From IMG/VR virus record IMGVR_UViG_3300042988_001306, positions 1-32,099 of that record: DNA of 32,099 bases; one strand, given 5' to 3'. This document shows positions 3-32,099 of the stretch, in pieces. A model generated the notes under the pieces. That model saw only the letters and a list, made by a program, of their open reading frames with translations, was not told the origin of the DNA and ran no database searches. Every line of letters begins with the position of its first letter. Positions within the stretch are counted from its first letter, which is position 1. This DNA is from a virus. The position numbers and the translations under genes were made by a program.

Positions 3-1208
3 GTCGAGGCGAGCCTGTTTTCGCCCGTGTCGCAACTGTCGCCAGTCTTCCCCGTCATGCGGAAGGTGGTGATCGAGGAGATCGCCCGAGAAGCCGAGAC
101 CGTCAATCTAGTCGGAGCCCCCAAGGTCGGCAAGTCGTTCATCGCATGCGATCTGGCGGTGAGCGTTGCCACCGGGACCAAGTGGCTCGGGCTATATGGG
201 TGCGAGATCGGCAATGTCCTGTGCGTCGATATGGAGCTCCACCCCGAGACCTTCATGGACCGTCTGCGGGCGGTTGTCGATGTGCGCGATGTTTCGGACG
301 CCGTGAAGTCGGAGGCCATGAACCGAATCCACCTGGCGTCCATGCGCGGTAAGGAGCCGAGCGGGGAATATCTTAAATATTGCCAGGCCAACGGCAGCAA
401 GCGTCCCCGCTACTGCGACATCGAATACATCCTATGGTACTTGGAAAACAACATTGAGGCCGGGTCATTCAAGCTGATTATCCTCGACGCTCTGTACCGC
501 ATGTTGCCTGATGGGACGCAGGAGAACGACAACAGCGACATGACGATGATCTACAACAGGTTGGACCGGCTTGCCCACACCATGCACTCAGTCATCGTCG
601 TGGTTCACCACTCGTCGAAGGGCGAGCAGTCCGGCAAGTCGGTCACCGATGTCGGCTCCGGTGCAGGATCCATCAGCCGTGCGGCCGATACCCACATCAC
701 GCTTCGTCGGCACAAGCAGGACCGGACGGTGATCCTCGATGCCGTCACCCGCTCATTCGACACCGGCGGACACCACAAGCAGTGCTTCAAGAAGAACGGG
801 GCTCAGTTCGTCCACGACTCGCAGGCCGACCCAAACGAGTACCACAAGGCGGGTGACGAGCAGGCCAGGCAGGCGGCCGATCCGCACCAGGCGATGCTGG
901 AAATCTGGCCAATCAACAGCGACAAGCGCCACAAGAAGGATGTTTTGATCTCGCTGTTGAAGGACGGCGGATGCTCAGACGCAGGCGCCAAGCAGGCGAT
1001 TAACACGGCCGTCGGAAACGGGACGGCCTTCGCGTTCCAAATCGGGGTTCGGACCTTCTACAGCCGACGCTCGCGGGATGCGGTGGTCGCGTCCCTGCTG
1101 GCCGAGGGAAGGACCTTCAAGGCGATCACCGAAGAGACTGGAGCGGGCCGGGCCGACATAATGCGGGTCAAGTCAATTCCTGGCAACACGTTAGGCGTCG
1201 GGGCTTGA
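3..1208 (+). CDS. RepA-like AAA/RecA-fold replicative helicase (5' end at window edge)
   Basis: The protein is a RecA-fold ATPase of the RepA/AAA_25 kind found in phage and plasmid replication. Counting from the GTG at 27, a Walker A motif GAPKVGKS sits at about residues 30-37, a Walker B-like IILDALYR strand near 150, and a sensor-like VVVHHSSKG segment near 190. The C-terminal 100 residues look like a winged-helix tail. It probably unwinds DNA or loads replication proteins at the phage origin. The frame is open to the left edge, so the GTG at 27 is unlikely to be the real start. If the molecule is circular, an in-frame ATG at 32087 adds about 13 residues. It is the first gene of the plus-strand operon. 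It could instead be a DnaB-like or Sak4-like recombination ATPase, but the VVVHHSSKG segment favours RepA-like. Confidence 0.8.
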   Translation, partial: VEASLFSPVSQLSPVFPVMRKVVIEEIAREAETVNLVGAPKVGKSFIACDLAVSVATGTKWLGLYGCEIGNVLCVDMELHPETFMDRLRAVVDVRDVSDAVKSEAMNRIHLASMRGKEPSGEYLKYCQANGSKRPRYCDIEYILWYLENNIEAGSFKLIILDALYRMLPDGTQENDNSDMTMIYNRLDRLAHTMHSVIVVVHHSSKGEQSGKSVTDVGSGAGSISRAADTHITLRRHKQDRTVILDAVTRSFDTGGHHKQCFKKNGAQFVHDSQADPNEYHKAGDEQARQAADPHQAMLEIWPINSDKRHKKDVLISLLKDGGCSDAGAKQAINTAVGNGTAFAFQIGVRTFYSRRSRDAVVASLLAEGRTFKAITEETGAGRADIMRVKSIPGNTLGVGA

Positions 1209-1254
1209 CACCAGACGATCCCCGGCATAGAAGCCGTCCCACCAAGGAGCCACC

Positions 1255-1524
1255 GTGCCCCCCCAGATCAAGACCAACAAGACCCGCAACGAGATCAACC
1301 GGGCCAACTACCTCCGAAACGCCGAAGAGCGGAAGCGGAAGCGGATGGAGCGGTACTGGGCGGCGAAGCTGCTTGAGATCGACCAGCAGATGGATTGGCA
1401 TGAGCTTCCGCCGGTCCCCGAGTCCACCGGCTGCGGGTCGTGGTCGGTAGAGCGCAGCTATCTGTCGCCGTTGGAGCTGCTGATTCGTGCAGAGGCTGAA
1501 GAGCTTGGCCTGGTCGAAGTCTGA
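1255..1524 (+). CDS. Small basic hypothetical protein
   Basis: This is an 89-residue protein that I do not recognise. The start is GTG at 1255, supported by an AAGGAG ribosome-binding site at 1243-1248. The N-terminal third is strongly basic and charged (Lys/Arg-rich, with NAEERKRKRMERYW near residues 22-35), which suggests a nucleic-acid-contacting helix. The C-terminal half is acidic (LLIRAEAEELGLVEV). It lies 46 bp after the helicase gene and 23 bp before the next gene, within the early operon. A role in replication is plausible from position only. Confidence 0.6.
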   Translation: MPPQIKTNKTRNEINRANYLRNAEERKRKRMERYWAAKLLEIDQQMDWHELPPVPESTGCGSWSVERSYLSPLELLIRAEAEELGLVEV

Positions 1525-1547
1525 ACACACACAACAGAGGACTGGCA

Positions 1548-1750
1548 ATGAAATATACCTTAGCCCGCCACAACATCGAGATCGCCGTGGATCCCAAGCA
1601 TCCCGGCATGGTGTTTGTTCACATCCACAGTAATTGCGGCTTCCACTTCTGCGCCGCGCTGAATGTGATGGAGGCCAGGGAGCTGGCCTCCGCGCTCGAA
1701 CAGGCAGCCGACGAGGCTGTCGCCAACGGCGTGGTGCTCAAGGAGAACGA

Positions 1751-1754
<4 letters not shown>
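1548..1754 (+). CDS. Small hypothetical protein
   Basis: This is a 68-residue protein with an ATG start and an AGAGGA-type ribosome-binding site a few bases upstream. It has an N-terminal beta-rich part (KYTLARHNIEIAVD; VFVHIHSNCGFHFCAAL) and an amphipathic C-terminal helix (EARELASALEQAADEAV). Its stop overlaps the start of the resolvase gene by ATGA at 1751-1754, so the two are probably translationally coupled. The family is not recognised. Confidence 0.6.
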
Positions 1755-2250
<496 letters not shown>

Positions 2251-2254
<4 letters not shown>

Positions 2255-2526
2255 TTGCCAGCCTGACCAACGTCGAGGCCGAGGTCCGCAAGGCCGGGCC
2301 GGGCGGCATTTCATCGCAGTGTTTGCGCGAGCGTCTGGACGGCGGGGTTCACGTTGTCGCGGCAAACTTGCGATGTCTTGAGGCACTTGGGCTGGTTTAT
2401 TCCGGCAAGGGCGGATGGATCCACGAGGTCTACCGCGCGGATCGCAAAAAGAAACAAGTCGGCTTTACCCGCCGGCCAATAACCACCGTCCACGCCCCGC
2501 GCCGGCAAAGGGCGTCCGAGCTATGA
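2251..2526 (+). CDS. Winged-helix-like small protein
   Basis: This is a 91-residue protein starting at GTG 2251, overlapping the resolvase stop (GTGA). The segment from about residue 10 to 60 (EVRKAGPGGISSQCLRERL, then NLRCLEALGLVYSGKGGWIHEVYRA) has the helix-turn-helix plus wing pattern of a winged-helix DNA-binding domain. A basic tail follows (RADRKKKQ, RRQR). It probably binds DNA as an early regulator or replication accessory. It ends in an ATGA overlap with the DUF3310 gene. Confidence 0.6.
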
Positions 2527-2786
2527 GCGATCCACAGGAAGTACTTGGAAATATCTGCATGCGGAATGCGGATTCTGTCAACCATCCCGGCCACTACAAC
2601 CAAGGCGGCATAGAGTGCATTGACGCTATCGTCGCGGCGCTCGGACATGACGGCGCCATCGCGTTTTGCCAGGGGCAAGTACTTCGCTATGCATGGCGCG
2701 TCGGCCGGAAGGGCCCGGCTGCCGAGGACTTCCGCAAGGCGGAGTGGTATGCCCGCAGGGCGGCGGAACTGCTGGAGGGGAAATAA
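2523..2786 (+). CDS. DUF3310 phage protein
   Basis: This is an 87-residue protein with the DUF3310 signature: VNHPGHYNQGGIECIDAI near residues 19-36, then a helix ending LRYAWRVGRKG and a final FRKAEWYARRAAEL helix. The family is common in phage replication modules and its biochemical role is not settled. The ATG at 2523 overlaps the preceding stop. This is the last backbone gene before the cassette array, and its stop lies 15 bp before the first attC half-site. Confidence 0.8.
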   Translation: MSDPQEVLGNICMRNADSVNHPGHYNQGGIECIDAIVAALGHDGAIAFCQGQVLRYAWRVGRKGPAAEDFRKAEWYARRAAELLEGK

Positions 2787-2800
2787 CATGCCTGCTCTGG

Positions 2801-2830
2801 TGCCGGCTCCGGTGCATCGACTTGTTGGGC
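2801..2830 (+). repeat. Truncated attC half-site (right arm only), left boundary of array
   Basis: The segment carries the right inner arm CCGGCTCCGGTGCATC, the spacer GACTT and the outer box GTTGGGC (2824-2830). It matches the right halves of the complete sites. No matching left arm is present upstream in the end of the DUF3310 gene or the bases after it. A GGAGG followed by ATG at 2788 precedes it, as in the loop of the site at 4954-5041. Confidence 0.7.
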
Positions 2831-2869
2831 TGCTTCACCAACCACAGAAAGCGATACCAAGGATAACCA

Positions 2870-3175
2870 ATGAGCTTCAAATGCGGTATTTGCGGGCACT
2901 GGAACTGCTACGCTGGTCACTTCAAGCACCCAACCAGGTTGTTCGCGTCCATGCCACATCCGTATATATTGGGCAAGGACTGCATGTTTGAGCACGATTT
3001 GCCCGATGAAATGTCAGACCGCGAATACGCGGACTGGCGAGAGGAATCAGTGCTCGTTGACGGAGTGCGCATGGGTCCCGTGTTTCCGCCCAACGCCAGA
3101 GATCACCGGGCGCCCGAAGGGCGCTCCGGTGCATCGACTTGTTGGGCGGGTTCTGGTCAGGAGTTGCAGCCATGA
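2870..3175 (+). CDS. Cassette 1: zinc-ribbon-like small protein with attC-encoded tail
   Basis: This is a 101-residue protein. The N-terminus has a possible metal-binding cluster CGICGHWNCYAGH (residues 5-17), and an acidic middle follows (DLPDEMSDREYADW). Residues from about 73 onward (PNARDHRAPEGRSGASTCWA) are encoded by the attC repeat. The frame continues past it and stops at 3175, overlapping the next ATG (ATGA). The start is chosen at ATG 2870 with AAGGA eight bases upstream. A competing frame from ATG 2788 overlaps the first part but looks less protein-like. Function is unknown. A metal-stabilised binding protein is the most that can be inferred. Confidence 0.65.
   Translation: MSFKCGICGHWNCYAGHFKHPTRLFASMPHPYILGKDCMFEHDLPDEMSDREYADWREESVLVDGVRMGPVFPPNARDHRAPEGRSGASTCWAGSGQELQP
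3088..3147 (+). repeat. attC-like site 1 (60 bp)
   Basis: Outer boxes are GCCCAAC (3088-3094) and GTTGGGC (3141-3147), a perfect inverted pair. The inner stem pairs GAT-CACCGG-GCGCCC (3101-3115) with GGGCGC-CCGGTG-ATC (3119-3135), around a GAA loop. T3125 and C3132 are left unpaired on the right arm, 6 bp apart. Class 1 integron attC sites of the aadA type have the same 60-bp length, box types and pair of extrahelical bases, read from the opposite strand. Confidence 0.85.
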
Positions 3176-3498
3176 GCGGTTTTATCTGCGATGAATGCGG
3201 CTGGCACGGGAACAATCCGGCATCAGTCGTGATCCCAATGTACGGCACTAGAGATGAGGCGATTGATGTATGTCCGAAGTGTCGCTGCGTAAAATCATCG
3301 CTGTCTGTATGTTGCGAAGAACCTGGTTGCAAAAATATAGCGTCATGCGGAACGCCAAACCAGACTGGATACAAGCGTCATTGCCACCTGCATCCGCCCA
3401 ACGCCGAAGATCACCGGGCGCCCGAAGGGCGCTCCGGTGCATCGACTTGTTGGGCGGCTTCTTCTAACGCCGGAAACACGAACCAGGATAATCCATAA
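3172..3498 (+). CDS. Cassette 2: cysteine-rich zinc-ribbon-like protein with attC-encoded tail
   Basis: This is a 108-residue protein. CDECGWHG near the start and CPKCRC near residue 38 form a plausible four-Cys zinc ribbon. A second Cys/His-rich cluster follows (CCEEPGCKNIASCG, then HCHLH). The last 35 residues are mostly encoded by the attC site (PNAEDHRAPEGRSGASTCWA). The start is the ATG at 3172 that overlaps the preceding stop, with a CAGGAG ribosome-binding site upstream. The stop overlaps the next start as TAATG at 3496-3500. Function is unknown. Metal binding is an inference from the Cys spacing. Confidence 0.65.
   Translation: MSGFICDECGWHGNNPASVVIPMYGTRDEAIDVCPKCRCVKSSLSVCCEEPGCKNIASCGTPNQTGYKRHCHLHPPNAEDHRAPEGRSGASTCWAASSNAGNTNQDNP
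3396..3455 (+). repeat. attC-like site 2 (60 bp)
   Basis: The site has GCCCAAC (3396-3402) and GTTGGGC (3449-3455) boxes with an inner stem and two bulges identical to site 1. It differs only in the left unpaired spacer (GCCGAA instead of GCCAGA), which lies outside the stem, so the fold is unaffected. Confidence 0.85.
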
Positions 3499-3728
3499 TG
3501 AAATCAAAAATCATAGATCTTTTATGCGGGGCATCATACACCAGGTATGATATAGATGCTGGACATAGCTACCAGCACCGTCTAGTCGATGACGAAATCC
3601 ATGCCAGGGCAGTCATCGACATCCTGGAACGTGCAGGGATCGAGCTGCCCAACGCCAGAGATCACCGGGCGCCCGAAGGGCGCTCCGGTGCATCGACTTG
3701 TTGGGCGCCTAATCAGGATAAACCATGA
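3498..3728 (+). CDS. Cassette 3: small hypothetical protein with attC-encoded tail
   Basis: This is a 76-residue protein of which about 50 are cassette-specific. These look mainly helical (KSKIIDLLCGASYT; DDEIHARAVIDILERAGIEL). The final 26 come from the attC site and the next leader. The start is ATG 3498 in a TAATG overlap with the previous gene, with CAGGA upstream. It stops at 3728 in an ATGA overlap with the next gene. The coding sequence is clearly more AT-rich than the phage backbone. The family is not recognised. Confidence 0.6.
   Translation: MKSKIIDLLCGASYTRYDIDAGHSYQHRLVDDEIHARAVIDILERAGIELPNARDHRAPEGRSGASTCWAPNQDKP
3647..3706 (+). repeat. attC-like site 3 (60 bp)
   Basis: This copy is identical base for base to site 1, with GCCCAAC (3647-3653), the bulged inner stem, and GTTGGGC (3700-3706). 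Confidence 0.85.
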
Positions 3729-3958
3729 CCCTTTTCGATCGGATAAAAAATTTCGACGATGCGCATTGGCTTAGGGACTATGGCGACGCCCCCAAATATC
3801 AGATTATAGCCATTGATGAAATGAACGAATCAGAGCGCGTAGCATGGATGCGTTCTGCCATGACTTTATTGTGCCGGCTTCTCAAAGATGAAGCCGCAGC
3901 GCCCAACGCCAGAGATCACCGGGCGCCCGAAGGGCGCTCCGGTGCATCGACTTGTTAG
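3725..3958 (+). CDS. Cassette 4: small hypothetical protein ending in attC
   Basis: This is a 77-residue protein. The first 58 residues are cassette-specific and acidic-helical (FDRIKNFDDAHWLRDYGDAP; DEMNESERVAWMRSAMTLL). The remainder is attC-encoded and ends at TAG inside the right outer box (GTTAGAT). ATG 3725 overlaps the previous stop and has CAGGA upstream. The family is not recognised. Small acidic proteins of this kind in phage accessory loci can be inhibitors of host proteins, but nothing here proves that. Confidence 0.6.
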   Translation: MTLFDRIKNFDDAHWLRDYGDAPKYQIIAIDEMNESERVAWMRSAMTLLCRLLKDEAAAPNARDHRAPEGRSGASTC

Positions 3959-3960
3959 AT
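3901..3960 (+). repeat. attC-like site 4 (60 bp, hybrid outer boxes)
   Basis: The inner part is identical to site 1. The left box is GCCCAAC (3901-3907) but the right box is GTTAGAT (3954-3960), so the two outer boxes no longer match each other. The right box instead nearly matches the left box of the next site (ATCTAGC, 4195-4201), as expected when the box travels with the following cassette. Confidence 0.85.
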
Positions 3961-3985
3961 TCCACCACCCACCGGAGAATACACC

Positions 3986-4240
3986 ATGCAGACCGCGTTA
4001 TGCTACGACCTTGACATGTCAGATCCATACACCAGAAAAGGCGTGCAAGCATACAGCGAAGCTATGCGCTGTGTGATGATTAAGGGGATTGGATACGTGT
4101 TTATTAAAAGGCGGATGGAAATTACACAAGACATTGCGCTGCATATTGCGGAATTGCTCGCTGAAATTGGACCGATTCCGCACGACGCCAAGGAATCTAG
4201 CGCCAAGATCAGCGGGCATGCGCCCACGGAGGATAAATGA
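3986..4240 (+). CDS. Cassette 5: small hypothetical protein
   Basis: This is an 84-residue protein starting at ATG 3986 after a CGGAGA ribosome-binding site. Residues 13-55 look helical (SDPYTRKGVQAYSEAMR; ITQDIALHIAELLAEIG) and the tail is polar. The gene runs into attC site 5 and stops in its loop at 4240, overlapping the ATG of a 16-codon reading frame. The sequence is AT-richer than the phage backbone. No family is recognised. Confidence 0.6.
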   Translation: MQTALCYDLDMSDPYTRKGVQAYSEAMRCVMIKGIGYVFIKRRMEITQDIALHIAELLAEIGPIPHDAKESSAKISGHAPTEDK

Positions 4241-4289
4241 ATACTGAAAACGCTAATGGCGCATGCTCCGCTGCATCGCCTTGTTAGGT
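4195..4289 (+). repeat. attC-like site 5 (95 bp, diverged, long loop)
   Basis: Boxes are ATCTAGC (4195-4201) and GTTAGGT (4283-4289). The inner stem pairs GAT-CAGCGG-GCATGCGCC (4207-4224) with GGCGCATGC-CCGCTG-ATC (4258-4277): 18 base pairs, with T4267 and C4274 bulged exactly as in the 60-bp sites. The stem sequence differs from the others on both arms in a compensating way. The 33-base loop contains GGAGG and an ATG (4237). Confidence 0.85.
4237..4287 (+). CDS. 16-codon reading frame inside attC site 5 (possible coupling leader)
   Basis: ATG 4237 follows GGAGG at 4228-4232 and overlaps the stop of cassette 5 (ATGA). It encodes M-N-T-E-N-A-N-G and eight more residues, and stops at TAG 4285-4287 inside the right outer box. 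That is 14 bases before the methylase ATG, which has only a weak ribosome-binding site of its own. It may be a leader that couples methylase translation to the upstream gene, or a remnant of a longer gene start like that of cassette 7 (M-N-N-E-N). Confidence 0.35.
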   Translation: MNTENANGACSAASPC

Positions 4290-4301
4290 TGCGAATCCTT
4301 T

Positions 4302-4970
4302 ATGAAACCAACACCCTTCTACGAGCAAGACGGCATCACCATCTATCATGGCGATTGCGCACAAATTTTGCCATTCCTTGATCCGGTTGACCTGCTGCTG
4401 ACCGACCCGCCGTATGGAATTGGCGCAGACAGGAACCTTCGTGCAAACAAAAGGCACGGAAGCGCAAAGGCCGCAAGCCGCGACTACGGCGAAGGAGGAT
4501 GGGACGCAGCGCCACCGCAAGACTGGATGTTGCAGATGGCACGATCAAAAGCCAATAAAGCGGTTATATGGGGAGGTAACTATTTCAACCTTCCGCCGAC
4601 TAGATGCGTCTTTGTGTGGGACAAAAACAATGGCAGCAATTGCTATGCCGATTGCGAATTGGCATGGACCAACATGGACATGGCGGTCCGCAAGTTCAAG
4701 TGGACTTGGCACGGCATGATCCAGGAACATATGGGAGCAGCAAAAGAAGAACGACACCACCCAACACAAAAACCGCTAGCACTAATGGTATGGTGCATTG
4801 AGAAGTGCGGGCCTTCAACTATTATCGACCCATTCATGGGGTCAGGCACTACCTTGGTTGCAGCCAAGAGCCTAGGCAAGCGTGCCATCGGCATCGAACG
4901 CGAATTGAAGTATTGCAAGATTGCAGTTGAACGGTTAAGGATGAGGCTGCCGCGCCCAACGCCAAGCTAA
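4302..4970 (+). CDS. Cassette 6: beta-class DNA adenine-N6 (or cytosine-N4) methyltransferase
   Basis: This is a 222-residue methyltransferase with catalytic motif IV DPPYG at residues 35-39 and the AdoMet-binding motif DPFMGSGTT at 176-184, preceded by HHPTQKPLALM. The order IV then I places it in the beta class. It methylates an exocyclic amino group (N6-A or N4-C) in duplex DNA. The target-recognition region between the motifs is short (about 130 residues), as in solitary phage methylases. No partner nuclease is in the window, so protection of phage DNA from restriction is the likely role. The start at ATG 4302 is preferred over the in-frame ATG at 4263, which lies inside the attC stem. 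The stop TAA lies in the left arm of attC site 6. Confidence 0.85.
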   Translation: MKPTPFYEQDGITIYHGDCAQILPFLDPVDLLLTDPPYGIGADRNLRANKRHGSAKAASRDYGEGGWDAAPPQDWMLQMARSKANKAVIWGGNYFNLPPTRCVFVWDKNNGSNCYADCELAWTNMDMAVRKFKWTWHGMIQEHMGAAKEERHHPTQKPLALMVWCIEKCGPSTIIDPFMGSGTTLVAAKSLGKRAIGIERELKYCKIAVERLRMRLPRPTPS

Positions 4971-5041
4971 CCGGGCCGGGAGAAAAACCATGAACAACGA
5001 GAACAACGCGATTCCGGCTCCGGTTGAGCGCCTTGATGGGC
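4954..5041 (+). repeat. attC-like site 6 (88 bp, diverged, long loop)
   Basis: Boxes are GCCCAAC (4954-4960) and GATGGGC (5035-5041). The inner stem pairs GCT-AACCGG-GCCGG (4966-4979) with CCGGC-CCGGTT-AGC (5014-5029). The bulged bases are T5019 and G5026, again 6 bp apart on the right arm. On the complementary strand they are A and C, exactly the bases of the classical aadA attC. The loop contains the start of cassette 7. The right box pairs perfectly with the left box of site 7 (GCCCATC). Confidence 0.85.
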
Positions 5042-5424
5042 GTGCCTTGGATGTCTTGGAGACGTGCAGAGCCTACGAGTATTACTACGACGCCTATTAT
5101 GGTCCGGATGCGCCATTCTCTGATCAGCGCCCCGAGCCATCCAGTGTCGCGGAGGCTTTGCAGGATTTATGCCAGGCTGTGCCAGGCGTTATTCGGGCGC
5201 TGGAAAGCCAGCGAGACGAAGCCGTGAGATTACTTCGGGCGTTGGTCGGAGAACATGGTTTTATGCAATATTCTATGACCCTTAATCATCATGAAGAATG
5301 CACGGCATTCCTCGCGGGCTTGCCGCCCATCGCCAGAGATCACCGGGCGCCCGAAGGGCGCTCCGGTGCATCGACTTGTTGGGCAGATTCACCAATCACA
5401 GAAACCAATACCAAGGAGAAATAA
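4990..5424 (+). CDS. Cassette 7: acidic helical hypothetical protein with attC-encoded ends
   Basis: This is a 144-residue protein. ATG 4990 lies in the loop of attC site 6 after GGGAGA, so about the first 17 residues (including IPAPVERLDG) are encoded by that site. The middle is acidic and aromatic (YEYYYDAYYGPDAPF), then helical (SVAEALQDLCQAVPGVIRAL; RDEAVRLLRALVGEHG). The C-terminus reads through attC site 7 in the same frame as the other cassettes (ARDHRAPEGRSGASTCWA) and stops at 5424, one base before the next ATG. The family is not recognised. Confidence 0.6.
   Translation: MNNENNAIPAPVERLDGRALDVLETCRAYEYYYDAYYGPDAPFSDQRPEPSSVAEALQDLCQAVPGVIRALESQRDEAVRLLRALVGEHGFMQYSMTLNHHEECTAFLAGLPPIARDHRAPEGRSGASTCWADSPITETNTKEK
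5325..5384 (+). repeat. attC-like site 7 (60 bp)
   Basis: The inner part is identical to site 1. The left box is GCCCATC (5325-5331), complementary to the right box of site 6 (GATGGGC), while the right box is GTTGGGC (5378-5384). The mismatched boxes around one hairpin and the matched boxes around one cassette are the pattern left by cassette exchange. Confidence 0.85.
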
Positions 5425-5425
5425 C

Positions 5426-5602
5426 ATGCTTGCCCTGGCGATCGTATCAACATGTCTCATTGCTCTGTTTATGGCGGCGCAATCCATTGCTACTGGCGCA
5501 AAGGATGGAATTGTCGGTTTCATTGGAGCGTCAGTTGTGAACGCAATGCTATTGGGACCGGCAATCGTCACCATATGGCTTATGTACGCGAGGCTGCCAT
5601 GA
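5426..5602 (+). CDS. Cassette 8: small two-helix membrane protein
   Basis: This is a 58-residue very hydrophobic protein with two predicted membrane helices (about residues 2-20, LALAIVSTCLIALFMAAQS, and 28-53, ending VTIWLMYARL), joined by a short Gly/Asp/Lys turn. The start is ATG 5426, with AAGGAG at 5412-5417. The leader resembles that of cassette 1 (shared TTCACCAA, CACAGAAA and ATACCAAGGA blocks). It stops immediately before the terminal half-site. It could be a holin-like or superinfection-exclusion protein. Topology is the only evidence. Confidence 0.6.
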   Translation: MLALAIVSTCLIALFMAAQSIATGAKDGIVGFIGASVVNAMLLGPAIVTIWLMYARLP

Positions 5603-5603
5603 C

Positions 5604-5627
5604 GCCCAACGCCAGAGATCGCCGGGC
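5604..5627 (+). repeat. Truncated attC half-site (left arm only), right boundary of array
   Basis: GCCCAAC (5604-5610) is followed by GCCAGAGATC and GCCGGGC. This matches the left half of the 60-bp sites with one change (CACCGG to CGCCGG). No right arm or GTTRRRY box follows before the next phage gene. Confidence 0.7.
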
Positions 5628-5651
5628 ATCCACAACCACGAAGGGAACCCC

Positions 5652-5846
5652 ATGACCGCCTGGGTCTGTCAGCAGCCCCTCCACCCCTGCCCCATCTGCG
5701 ACGGGGAGGACCTAGCAGCCCGCACGGAGCCCGGCGGCCGGGTCCACATCGCCTGTCGTCGGTGCGGATTCGCCGGCCCACCGGCTGACGCCCTGGTCGG
5801 GGCCTGCATCGCATGGGACCAAACCCCTTCCAAGGAAAACACGTGA
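5652..5846 (+). CDS. Lar-like zinc-ribbon protein
   Basis: This is a 64-residue protein of the Lar (restriction alleviation) type. It has CPIC at residues 13-16 and CRRCGFAGPPADALVGACIAW further on. This is the usual arrangement of Cys-x2-Cys pairs, Cys-Gly-x2-Gly-Pro, and a final helix ending in Ala-Trp. Some Lar family members reduce type I restriction of incoming phage DNA, but many small phage homologues are uncharacterised. ATG 5652 has an AAGGGA ribosome-binding site. It is the first backbone gene after the array and ends in a GTGA overlap with the next gene. Confidence 0.65.
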   Translation: MTAWVCQQPLHPCPICDGEDLAARTEPGGRVHIACRRCGFAGPPADALVGACIAWDQTPSKENT

Positions 5847-6007
5847 TTATTTGGCTCGTCTTCGGCCTCATCCTCCTCGTCTGCGTCGCCGGACTGATCT
5901 GCGCCATCGCCGGCGAGACCCCCGGCCGGCCCCGCTGGTTGAGCTGGCTGCGCGAGCGCGACCGGCGCGAACGTGAATCCAAAAAGAGCGATAGGTGGTC
6001 GCTGTGA
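5843..6007 (+). CDS. Small single-pass membrane protein
   Basis: This is a 54-residue protein starting at GTG 5843 (GTGA overlap with the previous stop). An N-terminal membrane helix (IIWLVFGLILLVCVAGLICAI) is followed by a strongly basic cytoplasmic tail (RERDRRERESKKSDR). A longer start at 5813 would read through the Lar-like gene and is less likely. Function is unknown. Confidence 0.55.
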   Translation: MIIWLVFGLILLVCVAGLICAIAGETPGRPRWLSWLRERDRRERESKKSDRWSL

Positions 6008-6300
6008 GAACCTCCTACACCATGGGCGAGGCCTCCAGGCGCGACCTGGCGCAGCAGGACCTCGATGCCGTCAACCGGGAGAAGGTGCTCGACGTCCTCC
6101 GGGACGCCGGCCAGCCGTTGTTCGTGGCGGACATCGCCAGGCGGACCGGCATGGGGCCGTCTGCTGTCGGGCGGGTCCTGGCCAAGAGCCCGCGAACTTT
6201 CCATGCGGAGCAGTGGACCCGGTGGCAGATCCTGGTGAGCCCGAACCGGGACCTGGCCCGGTACTGGCCGGCGTGGCAGGGCGCAGGAGGCGCGGCATGA
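6004..6300 (+). CDS. Winged-helix DNA-binding protein
   Basis: This is a 98-residue protein. The start at GTG 6004 overlaps the previous stop (GTGA), as elsewhere in this operon. Residues 20-60 form a recognisable winged-helix pattern: NREKVLDVLRDAG, VADIARRTGMGPSAVGRVLA (helix-turn-helix), then a beta hairpin. It probably acts as a small phage regulator. It ends in an ATGA overlap with the next gene. Confidence 0.6.
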   Translation: MRTSYTMGEASRRDLAQQDLDAVNREKVLDVLRDAGQPLFVADIARRTGMGPSAVGRVLAKSPRTFHAEQWTRWQILVSPNRDLARYWPAWQGAGGAA

Positions 6301-6782
6301 CCGTCGCGCCGCCAGCCTGCGCCATCCTCTGCCCGGGGCCCAGCCTGTCCCGCTTCCCGGTCGGTCTAATCCGGCACCACCAGATCATCGCGGTCAACGA
6401 CGCCAGAGAGCTCTGTCCGCACGACTACTGGTGCGCCGGGGACGCGCACACGTTCTACAAGAACAAGCTCCATCCGAACACCAAGGTCGTCCACTGCACC
6501 GCCGAGCCAATGCCGGATGCCCCAACCCGGCACATCTCCTGGTCGAGCCTGGGTGCCAGGCCGGAGCACTACTCGATGGTGACGGCGCTTCGCCTGGCGA
6601 AGCACCTGGGCTTCGAGTCCGTCGCCGTCTTCGGCTGCGACTGGGCGGGCTCCAAGTACTTCAACGGAATCGAGGACACCAAATGCACCCACGCCGGCCG
6701 GTGGAAGGCCGAGCGAGAGGCGTGGGAAGCCCTCGTAGCGACGATCGGGATCCCGGTCGTCCGCTACGGGCCGATCGGTTAG
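6297..6782 (+). CDS. MptE/DUF115-like protein (putative nucleotide-binding)
   Basis: This is a 161-residue protein. The N-terminal Rossmann-like start CAILCPGPSL, followed by IIAVNDAREL and DYWCAGDAHTF, resembles the DUF115/MptE-like group and related phage transferases, which use a GPSL turn and an N/D-rich second strand. A second strand-helix unit (LGFESVAVFGCDWAG) and a C-terminal GIPVVRYGPIG follow. It may modify a sugar or nucleotide, but the substrate cannot be read from the sequence. It is the last plus-strand gene, and its stop TAG overlaps the stop of the convergent minus-strand gene. Confidence 0.45.
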   Translation: MTVAPPACAILCPGPSLSRFPVGLIRHHQIIAVNDARELCPHDYWCAGDAHTFYKNKLHPNTKVVHCTAEPMPDAPTRHISWSSLGARPEHYSMVTALRLAKHLGFESVAVFGCDWAGSKYFNGIEDTKCTHAGRWKAEREAWEALVATIGIPVVRYGPIG

Positions 6783-21441: not shown

Positions 21442-23826
21442 TCAGCACACGTCATAATCGGTGGCACTCACCGCCTGGAGGACGATCGCCTCTCCGGGGG
21501 CAAGCGTGATGTCGGCGGACGAGCCGTCGAAGGTGACGCCAGAGCCCGGGCGCACGATCAGGTTCCCGGTTCCGCGGTTCTTGATCGTCTTGCGAAGCCC
21601 GTAGCTTTGCGTGCCGAACGGGGACCCCGAGGTCGAATAGTGCCCCAGGACGGTGAAGACGTGCCCGCCGGTGCCGGTGTATCTGGCGTGAGGGTTGTTC
21701 CCGGGGAGTGTCTGCGACGTTGAGTAACTTTCAACCGTTACCCATTCCCCCTTCGTGTAGATCGGGCACGCGAACTCGAACCCCGAGCTGGTCCAGTGCG
21801 ACGTTCCGCCGTTGAACCGCCAAGAATATGAGTAGCTGGGGTCAACGATCGCCTCAGCGGTGTCGTCATTCCACTGCAAAAGCAATGATCCGAGCCAGTC
21901 GCCGCCGCCGAAGGTTCCAGTGAATGTGAAGAAGTCGTAGCTGAACAGCGGCCCCGCCAGTTCGTTCACCGGGTCATACGTCTCATATGTCGATAAATCC
22001 GCCACCGGTGTCTTGCGCATCCGGCACTTCACGTCCAGGGTCGGTGTCGTCCCGCTACGGGTCAAATCAAGAGCGGTCTGATCGAAGGTCTCGGCGTCGT
22101 TCACCGCCCGCAGCTTGAAGTTGATCCCGTCGAACCACCACTCCCACCGCTTCTCGTCTACCCCTGCGCTCTCATTGTACCATGGCTGACGGATGGATCC
22201 GGAAGCCGCCCGGAGGGTAAGGGGGCCAGTGAATACCGTGGGGCCGTTCGTGACCCCGTCCGAGTTGTTGCTCCCGCTCGACTGGACCTTGCCCGTCGTG
22301 ATCCAGGAGGCTCCGGTTGCAGCGGCGAGGAACAGTCCATCGCCATAGCAGCAGGAACTCCAGTTGCCGCTGACCGGGGCGGTCCTGGTCGTCCAGGTGA
22401 TGCCCTCCGGGCTAGTCATGATCGGGAAGGCCGCGTCCGTGGTCGCCACCGCGACGAACTGGCCGCCGCCGTAGCAGACCCCGCGCCAGTCGCCATTTAC
22501 TGTCGTCCGGGCCGTCCAGGTGACGCCATCCGGGCTGGTCATGACCCGATCGGCCGCGCCCGTAGAGGAAACGGCGACGAAGAGCCCGTTGCCGTAGCAG
22601 ACGCTGCGCCAGACGTTGTAGGCCGTCCCGGTCTGGATGGTCCAGAGGATGCCGTCGCTCGACGTCATCACGCAACTGGTGTTGCCCGAGCTTCCGACAG
22701 CGACGAACCGGCTGTTGCCGTGGCAGACGCCGTACCAATTGATGTCCGCGGCACTGGTGCGGGCCGTCCAGGTGATGCCATCCGGGCTGGTCATGACCCG
22801 GTTGCCGGATCCCGAATTGGAAACCGCGACGAACAGGCCGTTGCCGTAGCAGACGCTGTACCAGTTGTTGTCCGCGGCACTGGTGCGCGCCGTCCAGGTG
22901 ATGCCGTCCGGGCTGGTCATGACCCGGTTGCCGCTGCCGCTGGTCGAGACGGCGACGAACAGGCCGTTGCCATAGCAGACGCTGCGCCAGGTGTTGCTGG
23001 CCGCCGCGGTCCGCATGGTCCAGTTGATGCCATCCGGGCTGGTGGCCACGGATCCGCTGCCGCCGACGGCGACGAAGAGGCCATTGCCGTGGCAGACGCC
23101 GTACCAAACGACAACGGCTGACGGGCTGGTGCGCGTCGTCCAGGTGACCCCGACATCCAGCTCTGCTATATCCAGCAGCGTGCGGGCGGCCTCTGCATCA
23201 TCCGCAGCGAGCAGATCCAAGCCAAACTCCGTCGCCTCTGTCAGCCGGTCACTGAGCCCAAGGAACTCGCGCATCACCCCGCCATCGAAGACGATATCCG
23301 CCGTGCCGCCGGTATAATCCGTCGTCGGTTCAATCGTCGCCGCGGCGTTCAGCCCCTCCAAGGTGGCGCCCGCCGGGACGACGATCCACATCGATTCATC
23401 CGCCCGGGTTTGCACAAACGACCCTAACTGCTCGTGCGAACCGCCGGTCTCGAAGATCACGGAAACATCAGTGGATGTCGGAGCCCCGGTCCAGAAGACC
23501 GCCATGTAGTCGATCGGATATGGCGGGTTGATGGAGCTCGGCATGCGAATGCGATAAAGCGCATTCTTGGCGATGTTGTACGGTGTTTCCGCCGCCGGGC
23601 GCACCCGGTATTGCGCGAGGCTCGGATCGTCGCCGGCGGCGATGGTGTCGGAGACTTTTCCGACGGTCAAAGACCGCCAGTAGGTATGGAAATCGTCCCC
23701 GTCAACCTTCGCGAGTACCTGGTCCACCGTCCCGCCGGAAGGGACGAAGCCCCTCCCTGCGGACTCGATCCGGGCGAGGATCTGATCGCCGGTAAGCGTT
23801 GGCGAGGTGCCGAAGACTGGAATCAT
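21442..23826 (-). CDS. Fibre protein with a seven-bladed beta-propeller
   Basis: This is a 794-residue protein starting at ATG 23826 (ATGA overlap with the upstream gene). Residues 1-220 are an N-terminal part with DQILARIESAGRGFV and DQVLAKVDG segments. Residues about 225-510 hold six full copies and a seventh partial copy of a repeat of about 40 residues with the core W-Y-x-VCYGNGLFVAV and SPDGITWTART. The opening GVTWTTRT strand can close the last blade, giving seven blades. Residues 530-794 form a fibre-like C-terminal part ending VLQAVSATDYDVC. It probably forms a host-surface-binding fibre. The repeat region should be able to recombine and change blade number. Confidence 0.65.
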   Translation of the reverse strand: MIPVFGTSPTLTGDQILARIESAGRGFVPSGGTVDQVLAKVDGDDFHTYWRSLTVGKVSDTIAAGDDPSLAQYRVRPAAETPYNIAKNALYRIRMPSSINPPYPIDYMAVFWTGAPTSTDVSVIFETGGSHEQLGSFVQTRADESMWIVVPAGATLEGLNAAATIEPTTDYTGGTADIVFDGGVMREFLGLSDRLTEATEFGLDLLAADDAEAARTLLDIAELDVGVTWTTRTSPSAVVVWYGVCHGNGLFVAVGGSGSVATSPDGINWTMRTAAASNTWRSVCYGNGLFVAVSTSGSGNRVMTSPDGITWTARTSAADNNWYSVCYGNGLFVAVSNSGSGNRVMTSPDGITWTARTSAADINWYGVCHGNSRFVAVGSSGNTSCVMTSSDGILWTIQTGTAYNVWRSVCYGNGLFVAVSSTGAADRVMTSPDGVTWTARTTVNGDWRGVCYGGGQFVAVATTDAAFPIMTSPEGITWTTRTAPVSGNWSSCCYGDGLFLAAATGASWITTGKVQSSGSNNSDGVTNGPTVFTGPLTLRAASGSIRQPWYNESAGVDEKRWEWWFDGINFKLRAVNDAETFDQTALDLTRSGTTPTLDVKCRMRKTPVADLSTYETYDPVNELAGPLFSYDFFTFTGTFGGGDWLGSLLLQWNDDTAEAIVDPSYSYSWRFNGGTSHWTSSGFEFACPIYTKGEWVTVESYSTSQTLPGNNPHARYTGTGGHVFTVLGHYSTSGSPFGTQSYGLRKTIKNRGTGNLIVRPGSGVTFDGSSADITLAPGEAIVLQAVSATDYDVC
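22310..23152 (-). repeat. About 120-bp tandem repeats encoding propeller blades
   Basis: Seven units share DNA blocks such as CCATCCGGGCTGGTCATGAC and CCGTAGCAGACGCTG on the plus strand. Units 2 and 3 (roughly 22770-23000) are most alike. This indicates recent duplication of blades within the gene. Confidence 0.8.
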
Positions 23827-29307: not shown

Positions 29308-31482
29308 TCAACCCTCCGACCGGAAGCCCCAGCCATACCGCCGCTCGACCCGGTACAACCCGCGACCGGAGATCGGGCCGACCCGCTGCCTCGGCGGCGG
29401 CTGATCCCGGCGGGTAAGGGGGGATTCGACCCGTCTCGGCTGCGGCTGCTCCTCCGCCTGCGCGGGATCGGGGGCCGCGCGGATCGCCCGCTCCTCCGCC
29501 CGATCGACGGTCTCTGGCGTGCGGGCCTCCACGACCTTCCGGTGCTGCACCTGCACCTCCGCCGTGCGCCGATCCGTCTCGCGCATGTCCCGGACGAAGC
29601 CGAGCATGAGCGCATAGGCATAGATGCAGCAGTCGAGCCAGTCGTGCCGGCCGGCCGACCGCTGGATGATCTTCTTGAAGGTCTTGGGGTCGAGGCCGGT
29701 CTGCTCCGCCACGAGGTGCCGGAAGTAGTGCGCATCCTGCGCCCCGAGCCCGTGCGGGATGACGCTGGCGCCGGCCTGGCCGACAGGACGGCGAAGCGCG
29801 GCGTGGAGCGCATCCCGCACGTTGTCCACGTTGATGTTGAACAACCCGTCGCGGATGAAGACCATGCCCTCAAGGTCACCAGGCTCGGGCTTGGTCATCT
29901 GCGTGTTGCCCTTGACCGCGCGCCACGGAGACGCAGACCCCTGCGAGCGCAGCCAGGGTAGCAGCCAGTCCGCCCGGTCGCCGGTGTCGAGACCGACCAG
30001 CACCAACTGGCTCTGCCCCGCGCAGCGATTCAGCACGATGTTCACGCGGTCGAGCAGGGAATGCAGTTCCGGCTGCGACATGGCCGCATGGTCCGGCCGG
30101 CCGTACTCGTAACCCCATGCTTGATGGTATGTGGTCTGGTCCCGGTTGAAGGTCAGGAGCGACCAGTAAATCCGGTCGTGCTGGACATCCACGCCAGCGA
30201 CCGCCCAGGGCGCGTCCGGCGCCTGGTCGGCGACCCGTCGAGAGTAGAGGTAGTCGGACCCGACGTGCTCGCGGTCGGTCTGGATGAGCGCCGGGCCCCA
30301 CTGCGTCGCGCTCGACCGCAACACCAGGCCTTGCCACCGCAGCTGCGTCGTCAGGCCTTCCCGGTCGCCGGTGTAGTTGCGGCACAACTGGTCGCGCCAG
30401 AAGGACCGCATCGGACCGTGGTCGCCATTCCTCTTGGCTAGTTCGGCTCGAAGATGTTCAGCCGCCAGGGTTGGCATGTCGCGCAGGCTGCTATCGAGCG
30501 CAGTCCACAGGAGGCCAAAGGACATGGTGACGGGGACTTTCCCAACCACGATCCCGTCCTTCCCCACCGTCTGGCCGTCGTGGACCAGGCGCCAGGTCCG
30601 CAACGCCGCCTGGCGCTGCGGCTCCGTCCAGAGCCCGTCACAGTGCGGGCACGAGTACCGAACGCCGGAGTCGTCCCGGGCCATGACCGTCGCCTCATCC
30701 TGCGGGTCGTACTGCACCCGCTCCCATTCCAGCGGCTGATAGGTCCCACAGTAGGGGCATGCGAAGTACAACCGACTGCGGGTGCTCTGCTGGTACATGC
30801 CGAGGATGATGCTGGCATCTTCGCCTTCCGACTCGTCATGCTTTACCGTAGATGTATAGATCCGGCGCGCTTGCCGACCGAAACTGTCCGCACGCTTCCC
30901 GACCAGCTCGACCCGGTGCGCGGTCTGGAACGAGTCCACCTCGTCTACTAGCACCGTAGGAGCAGTGACCGACGCCTGCGCCGCCTCGCTGGCACCGCCG
31001 CCGGGGATGAGGTAGAGCATGCCGGCCCGGTTGCCGCTGTCGGGGTCGCGAAAGACGACGAACCGCGGGGTCTGACCACCGCGGCCGCCCTGGCCCTTCT
31101 CCGGCAGCCACGCCGCGGCACCGGCGCCGAGGATCGACGGGTACACCTTGCCCGTCCAGGCCTCGGCGATCTTCTGCTGGGTCGGCTGGGAGTAGACGCA
31201 CGAGTTGCGGAGCGCGATCACCTGCCGCAGCATGGGAACCAGGACAAGAGCCAGGCTCTTGCCCGTCTGCACCGCACCGACGCCGACCAAGCTATGCCAG
31301 TCGTTGTCGAGCTCCCGGATCAGGGCCGCATGGACCGGGTCGAGGTCCGGGATGTAGGGCTTGCCCATCATCGGGCCGTCCGGCAGCAGAAGATCCTCCG
31401 CGACCTCCCGATGCGAAACGCCCCGAGGCGGAGGGCGCAGAACCGCCAAGATCCGCCGCAGCACCGCAGAATCAGCCGGCAT
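29308..31482 (-). CDS. Terminase large subunit (lambda GpA family)
   Basis: This is a 724-residue packaging motor. The N-terminal ATPase has the Walker A-like GAVQTGKS and the Walker B-like VLVDEVD. A Cys4 zinc ribbon (CPYCG and CPHCDG) separates the lobes, as in GpA proteins. The C-terminal RNase H-like nuclease has VAGVDVQHDRIYW, VLVGLDTGDRADWL and a C-terminal HDWLDCCIYAY. It translocates DNA and cuts at cos-type sites in relatives. The start at ATG 31482 overlaps the small-subunit stop. The tail beyond the nuclease (about 100 residues, Pro/Arg/Gln-rich) is longer than usual. Confidence 0.9.
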   Translation of the reverse strand: MPADSAVLRRILAVLRPPPRGVSHREVAEDLLLPDGPMMGKPYIPDLDPVHAALIRELDNDWHSLVGVGAVQTGKSLALVLVPMLRQVIALRNSCVYSQPTQQKIAEAWTGKVYPSILGAGAAAWLPEKGQGGRGGQTPRFVVFRDPDSGNRAGMLYLIPGGGASEAAQASVTAPTVLVDEVDSFQTAHRVELVGKRADSFGRQARRIYTSTVKHDESEGEDASIILGMYQQSTRSRLYFACPYCGTYQPLEWERVQYDPQDEATVMARDDSGVRYSCPHCDGLWTEPQRQAALRTWRLVHDGQTVGKDGIVVGKVPVTMSFGLLWTALDSSLRDMPTLAAEHLRAELAKRNGDHGPMRSFWRDQLCRNYTGDREGLTTQLRWQGLVLRSSATQWGPALIQTDREHVGSDYLYSRRVADQAPDAPWAVAGVDVQHDRIYWSLLTFNRDQTTYHQAWGYEYGRPDHAAMSQPELHSLLDRVNIVLNRCAGQSQLVLVGLDTGDRADWLLPWLRSQGSASPWRAVKGNTQMTKPEPGDLEGMVFIRDGLFNINVDNVRDALHAALRRPVGQAGASVIPHGLGAQDAHYFRHLVAEQTGLDPKTFKKIIQRSAGRHDWLDCCIYAYALMLGFVRDMRETDRRTAEVQVQHRKVVEARTPETVDRAEERAIRAAPDPAQAEEQPQPRRVESPLTRRDQPPPRQRVGPISGRGLYRVERRYGWGFRSEG

Positions 31483-31918
31483 AGGATGCCGCCAAAGATT
31501 CGAGCATATCGCGCACCGCCTCGTCCGCAACCCGCATCGCGGCATCGGCGCTTCCCGCATGGCGAGGCTCTTCCGCCAGGCGAGACTTGATCGTGGTCGA
31601 AAGCCGCAGGAGGTGGGCCCGCAGCCGCTGAAGAATCTCCTGCTGCGCCTCCACCACTTCGGCCTTGGTCAAGAGCTCGCCTTGCTCCTTCTTCAGCTGA
31701 ATCTCCTTCAGCTGTTGCGTGAACTTTGCTTCCAGCGTCTTATACTTGTCGTAGTCCGCCGGGTTCACGAGCGTGAGGTCGTCGGACTCGCTCCCGATCC
31801 GCGGCAGCATCTTCGGGGCGTCGATCGACCCCATCCTGATCGCCCGGCCCGCGCGCCGCGCGTTCGACTGGGCATATTCGTGGTCTTGGAGCTTCGGGTT
31901 TCCGGGCGGTCTGGCCAT
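31472..31918 (-). CDS. Terminase small subunit-like protein
   Basis: This is a 148-residue protein immediately upstream of, and overlapping, the large subunit. The N-terminus is basic (YAQSNARRAGRAIRM), and the middle is a long coiled coil (TLEAKFTQQLKEIQLKKEQG; EVVEAQQEILQRLRAHLLRL) as in small terminases of the Nu1/DUF1441 type, which bind the packaging site and oligomerise. The start at ATG 31918 lacks an obvious strong ribosome-binding site. An inverted copy of the iteron (CCATATC) sits eight bases upstream. Confidence 0.65.
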   Translation of the reverse strand: MARPPGNPKLQDHEYAQSNARRAGRAIRMGSIDAPKMLPRIGSESDDLTLVNPADYDKYKTLEAKFTQQLKEIQLKKEQGELLTKAEVVEAQQEILQRLRAHLLRLSTTIKSRLAEEPRHAGSADAAMRVADEAVRDMLESLAASYAG

Positions 31919-31977
31919 ACCGGGACCATATCACCGCTTCGGGGAAACGCCACCGGGTCGTATCAGATGGCTGCCGT

Positions 31978-32029
31978 GATATGGTTGGTGATATGGTCGC
32001 GATATGGTCGCGATATGGTCGTGATATAA
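31978..32029 (+). repeat. GATATGG iteron array in the divergent intergenic region
   Basis: GATATGG occurs at 31978, 31990, 32001 and 32012, with a variant GATATAA at 32023, so spacing is 12, 11, 11 and 11 bp, close to one helical turn. Further TATGG copies occur at 32032 and 32041, and an inverted CCATATC is at 31926-31932. The array lies between the small terminase gene (minus) and the probable start of the helicase gene (plus). It could be a replication origin, a terminase-binding (cos/pac) site or an operator. Confidence 0.75.
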
Positions 32030-32086
32030 AGTATGGCTCGTATGGTGTTAGTATAGGCCCATAGTTGTGCGGGATTTTATTCCGCG

Positions 32087-32099
32087 ATGCCGGCGGCTC
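32087..32099 (+). CDS. Probable true 5' end of the helicase gene across the sequence ends
   Basis: ATG 32087 begins M-P-A-A and, if the right edge is joined to position 1, continues in frame without a stop into the helicase gene. A hairpin GCGGGA/TTCCGC with a TTTTA loop (32069-32085) ends one base before it. No clear ribosome-binding site is visible. The join is an inference from reading-frame continuity. Confidence 0.45.

Follow-up and report, generated by a model that had tools for sequence, protein, structure and literature searches.

The window analysed here is a complete, linear IMG/VR record of 32,099 bases. A comparison of the two record ends showed nothing in common longer than 10 bases and no terminal overlap. 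On the minus strand, a 25-kb block of virion genes runs from 31918 down to 6779 and encodes the small (TerS) and large (TerL) terminase subunits, a lambda-type portal, a protease, decoration and capsid proteins. The plus strand (3-6782) encodes a RepA/DnaB-like helicase, a RuvC-like resolvase, a nucleotide-kinase family protein, a DNA methylase and a small winged-helix protein (5995-6300), and also carries a cassette array. The short repeats investigated in this study sit at the upstream edge of the minus-strand block, where the terminase/late operon begins (Table 1).

An earlier note on this DNA had placed the repeats next to the RepA-like helicase gene. In the linear record, the helicase lies at the opposite end and its reading frame is cut, and the proposed adjacency presumes circularity and passes over a gap of unspecified length. 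Because the best family matches of the helicase begin at profile positions 331-516, i.e. about 330-515 residues into the profiles, its N-terminal stretch is absent from the record. The C-terminus of the helicase was folded in search of a DNA-binding domain; the model was of low confidence and uninformative, with just sub-threshold TrpR-like hits. Rfam and tRNA scans gave zero hits.

Table 1. Features at the repeat locus and in related prophages. Positions are those of the window, except in the last row, where they refer to the prophage loci.
Feature	Position	Strand	Remarks
RepA/DnaB-like helicase (AAA_25)	3..1208	+	ORF open at record start
TerL, GpA (lambda) type	29308..31560	-	PF05876 1.1e-23, PF20454 4.3e-23; upstream limit is that of the longest ORF, true start may differ
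TerS	31472..31918	-	match to phrog_57 (lambda gpNu1 family) limited to its C-terminal part
Inverted copy, GTGATATGGT	31925..31934	-	exact 10-mer match
IHF-like motif TATCAGATGGCTG	31961..31973	+	differs from WATCARNNNNTTR at one position; lies between inverted copy and array; weak, post hoc
Array copy 1, GTGATATGGT	31976..31985	+	
Array copy 2, GTGATATGGT	31988..31997	+	
Array copy 3, GCGATATGGT	31999..32008	+	
Array copy 4, GCGATATGGT	32010..32019	+	
Array copy 5, degenerate GTGATATAAA	32021..32030	+	11 bp after copy 4
AT-rich tail	32031..32057	+	TATGG at 32032 and 32041, TATAGG at 32052; phasing loose
Prophage 11-bp array loci (L182, L192, L201, L203, L208, L222, L230, L232, L234)	about 1100-2000		

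Two further repetitive elements were observed in the record. A large gene of the virion region (22310-23106, minus strand) contains five to seven imperfect 126-bp repeats, corresponding to a domain of tandem repeats, each about 42 residues long. The cassette array at 2769-5630 (plus strand) is integron-like, with attC sites between small ORFs and without an integrase. Five attC sites carry an exact GTGCATCGACTTGTTGGGC (2812, 3129, 3437, 3688 and 5366), one is altered (3942), and partial or diverged sites are found near 4240, 4950 and 5604. Full-length copies follow each other at steps of 250-310 bp, their R''/R' boxes read GCCCAAC and GTTGGGC, and a DNA methylase gene is among the cassettes. 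All three sites that were tested fold as long attC-like hairpins (z -4 to -6.6). Phage attC sites in clusters have been described by Qi et al. 2023 (PMC9892861). An attC-like sequence ending in CCTTGTTGGGCGG was also seen between TerS and TerL of the closest relative, L160 (933-993), where it folds less convincingly (z -2.4).

A phased GATATGG array upstream of TerS

On the plus strand, GATATGG starts at 31978, 31990, 32001 and 32012, with start-to-start steps of 12, 11 and 11 bp, and a variant, GATATAA, follows 11 bp beyond at 32023. The 7-bp word is thus arranged head to tail with 4-bp spacers, giving an 11-bp unit of one helix turn; Tandem Repeats Finder reports 31975-32027 with period 11 and 4.7 copies. 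Four of the five array copies retain the 7-mer, while the sequence of the spacers and the spacing (12, 11, 11, 11) vary. An inverted 7-mer occupies 31926-31932 on the minus strand, 8 bp ahead of the TerS start codon (6-8 bp for the end of the inverted 10-mer), and is separated from array copy 1 by a 41-bp gap. The 10-mer GTGATATGGT has three exact and two one-mismatch copies in the 32-kb record, and all five, one of them inverted, lie within 95 bp at this locus.

No 7-mer reached a count of four inside 50 bp in any of 2000 local (181 bp) or 60 whole-record dinucleotide shuffles, and elsewhere in the record this density is reached solely by low-complexity coding DNA near 13.95 kb. Similarly, the score for word pairs at 11/22 bp was 29, compared with a shuffle mean of 0.45. 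The 35 bp at 32028-32062, on the right of the array, have an AT content of 0.57 against about 0.34 in the neighbouring kilobases; this flank lies outside the most AT-rich stretches of the record.

The four copies and one variant listed in the earlier note are accordingly present, as is its inverted copy where the small terminase gene begins. Its 11-12 bp steps hold for the phased copies, of which the first step is 12 bp; the TATGG copies at 32032 and 32041 are off phase (7 and 9 bp). The region, called divergent in that note, is indeed upstream of TerS, but the record stops at 32099 and the partner gene is outside view.

Apart from this locus, the word itself appears to be of no wider distribution than expected. 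A scan of IMG/VR for 11-bp triple arrays found GATATGGNNNNGATATGGNNNNGATATGG in three further viral contigs whose base composition is quite different, whereas the reversed control word GGTATAG, with the same composition and spacing, was found in six. Sharing of GATATGG is therefore at background level, and the candidate idea of an element common to phages was rejected. A scan of genome contigs for arrays of the word returned at least 119 stretches, mostly with 12-bp steps, and a literature search on GATATGG in phages found nothing relevant. Among viral sequences, the 52.8-kb contig IMGVR_UViG_3300006919_000075 contains at least 20 near-perfect 11-bp copies of GATATGGACTC (L008 10040-10144 and L010 1-125).

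The small terminase subunit and arrays at related loci

The profile match of the window TerS to phrog_57 starts at position 63. All six comparator TerS proteins, from lambda, two Roseobacter phages, Klebsiella KA2-1, Escherichia Alux-21 and Pseudomonas Presto, match the same family from positions 6-13, and in an alignment with the comparators the helix-turn-helix region is absent from the window protein. Likewise, no helix-turn-helix was seen in its N-terminal 50 residues, and an AlphaFold model, built from the single sequence and of modest confidence, has no ordered N-terminal domain. According to a review, a helix-turn-helix domain is common to all TerS proteins. Judged from sequence and model, the window TerS apparently lacks the DNA-binding domain of its family.

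Searches for close relatives with TerS, the helicase, TerL, the portal and the major capsid protein gave none, or fragments only. In an alignment-guided scan, the best relative was L160, whose TerL is 30% identical over residues 32-651. By inspection, the L160 TerS has an apparent helix-turn-helix at its N-terminus, and there is no repeat array in the 163 bp ahead of its gene.

A short-period repeat before TerS was found in 4 of 19 comparator regions (CRP-811, Presto, RcCronus and S-LBS1); at a stricter threshold the count was 2 of 19 versus a background of 4%, which is not significant. In Roseobacter phage CRP-811 (L006 32440-32559 and 1-200), GC-rich repeats phased at 10-21 bp lie upstream of TerS and are missing from its relatives CRP-406, -823 and -831. 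In Synechococcus phage S-LBS1 (L159 1340-1530, at the record end), the 9-bp repeats CCTAACCTA and GGTTGGGCA occur in both orientations between the primase-polymerase gene and TerS, and a stretch of about 120 bp occurs twice near the record end.

Nine prophage loci with GpA-type terminases, related through TerL, have 3-4 tandem 11-bp repeats between the replication genes and the terminase operon. These arrays sit downstream of phrog_4300, and in L182 and L201 downstream of a primase. In L182, L201, L208 and L234 the repeats are direct, as in the window, but they consist of other words (GTCAAAGTTGC, GTCGTATTGTG) and are placed about 1.3 kb before TerS instead of directly at it. The flanks of the prophage arrays are conserved, with a hairpin formed by ACCGAAAAT..TTTTCGGT and with GGGTAAAAAGT, while the repeat word is GTCAAAGTTGC in some and GTCGTATTGTG in others. 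Going by the sequences, it is as if the word and its binding protein had been exchanged together; conserved flanks with lineage-specific words are what is expected for a co-evolving protein and site.

Possible functions of the array

It is very probable that the array binds some protein. The head-to-tail layout of 7 + 4 bp suggests that a single protein would be bound cooperatively along one helix face. We infer the existence and type of this protein, its cooperativity, any looping and any part in regulation, replication or packaging. Among the possible uses, an operator that controls the terminase/late operon is ranked first, by a margin too small to separate it from an origin and a packaging site, which are ranked equal to each other.

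The operator is our favoured reading, held tentatively. A phage-encoded protein, most simply of the winged-helix or ribbon-helix-helix type, would bind the direct repeats and polymerise along one face of the helix, and the inverted copy at the TerS start would be occupied too, perhaps via a loop. The bound protein would repress or activate transcription of the minus-strand terminase/virion operon and would also control genes transcribed the opposite way, past the record end. Control of divergent transcription had been named last in the earlier note; it fits at least as well, with the second gene outside the record. The statistical significance of the array, its confinement to one locus and its place at the edge of the 25-kb block support an operator, as do the nine prophage loci with their lineage-specific words, and the winged-helix protein encoded in the record counts in favour as a candidate regulator. 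Direct repeats of a 7-bp half-site with 4-bp spacers are typical of head-to-tail winged-helix proteins (Pho-box type). Pho-box type and excisionase filament sites share the direct orientation and the 11-bp unit with the window array, whereas their repeat words are unrelated to GATATGG. A possible -10-like TATGGT overlaps the inverted copy exactly 6 nt ahead of the TerS ATG and could be a promoter element of a leaderless TerS transcript. No Shine-Dalgarno-like motif was found upstream of TerS, whereas roughly two in three of the remaining genes that were inspected have one. Against an operator, a sigma-70-like promoter scan of 31300-32099 gave no consensus match, direct tandem repeats are less usual than palindromes in phage operators, none of the proteins of the record is tied to the repeats, and the 11-bp arrays of the prophages, being near primase genes, fit an origin equally well.

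If the 11-bp unit had been expanded by replication slippage, the array would be a functionless minisatellite. Such arrays do arise, since tandem 11-bp arrays of any given 7-mer have a background of several per viral collection and one viral contig holds at least 20 near-identical copies of GATATGGACTC. However, slippage cannot make an inverted copy of the 10-mer 41 bp off, for which we estimate a chance of about 1e-4 by composition, and the irregular first step and differing spacers around a 7-mer kept in four of five copies also argue against it. This explanation is therefore considered unlikely. A replication origin has somewhat better prospects but is still doubtful. Here the repeats would be iterons bound by an initiator that melts the AT-rich DNA on their right for loading of the RepA/DnaB-like helicase. 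The short, helically phased direct repeats with a mildly AT-richer flank, in a record that encodes a RepA-like helicase at its other end, resemble the iteron origins of plasmids and phages, and short tandem arrays occur near primase or polymerase genes in other phages (S-LBS1 and the L182/L201 prophages). Typical iterons are longer than 11-bp units. In L009, GATATGG repeats lie near two TTATCCACA boxes, but this match is at background frequency. In contrast to known iteron origins, no initiator gene was recognised in the record (the sequence searched ends at 32099), and the helicase, the start of which is missing, is not adjacent in the record. Neither an exact nor a one-mismatch DnaA box was found near the array, and allowing up to two mismatches to TTATCCACA gave zero matches in 30288-32099. 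Other stretches of the record are more AT-rich than the flank, and the GC-skew analysis suggested in the earlier note as a check showed no turning point at the array. Of the origin proposed in that note, the helical phasing stands, while adjacency to the helicase is not seen in the linear record.

Packaging was the other use proposed in the earlier note, and it is no more probable than an origin. The array would be a cosB/pac-like recognition site whose repeats are bound by the terminase, directly or via a helper, with cutting of the concatemer nearby. The terminase is of the lambda GpA/gpNu1 type, and the array lies 8-110 bp upstream of the gpNu1-family TerS gene, a position equivalent to that of cos in phages with such terminases. 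In lambda, the three cosB repeats to which TerS binds lie between cosN and nu1 (PMC4856287); nu1 starts at 191 and its product also matches phrog_57. Achromobacter phage Mano has a terminase of the same type, and a cohesive end predicted by PhageTerm is annotated 81 bp upstream of its TerS. In lambda (R3-I1-R2-R1), as in the window, several repeat copies precede the TerS gene by no more than about 190 bp. An IHF site lies between the lambda copies, and the IHF-like motif in the 41-bp gap echoes site I1 between R3 and R2; with 18 such matches in 32 kb, one would fall in the gap by chance about 2% of the time, and the match is weak and post hoc. On the other hand, lambda has only a few R sites, which stand apart from each other and are bound by a winged-helix domain apparently missing from the window TerS, lambda bases 1-190 show no 11-bp periodicity, and no counterpart of cosN is recognisable here. 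The position fits a cos region, but the window TerS seems to be without the helix-turn-helix region of its family, L160 retains this region and yet has no array before TerS, and 15 of the 19 comparators have no short-period array. It is conceivable, but very improbable, that TerS has lost its DNA-binding domain and that a separate phage protein coats the GATATGG array and recognises the packaging site, tying packaging to transcription or replication.

Significance of the array

Arrays of phased repeats are already known as a kind of phage control element, and the sequence found here is new. The novelty beyond the ordinary is small and lies in the combination of a phased array with a TerS that seems to be without a DNA-binding domain. 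Given this apparent lack, the array offers a natural point from which to study how such a terminase finds its own DNA. Short phased arrays mark control sites of phage genomes, and deciding among the three uses, operator, origin or packaging site, would settle how a small phage with a lambda-type terminase couples its late genes with replication and with packaging.
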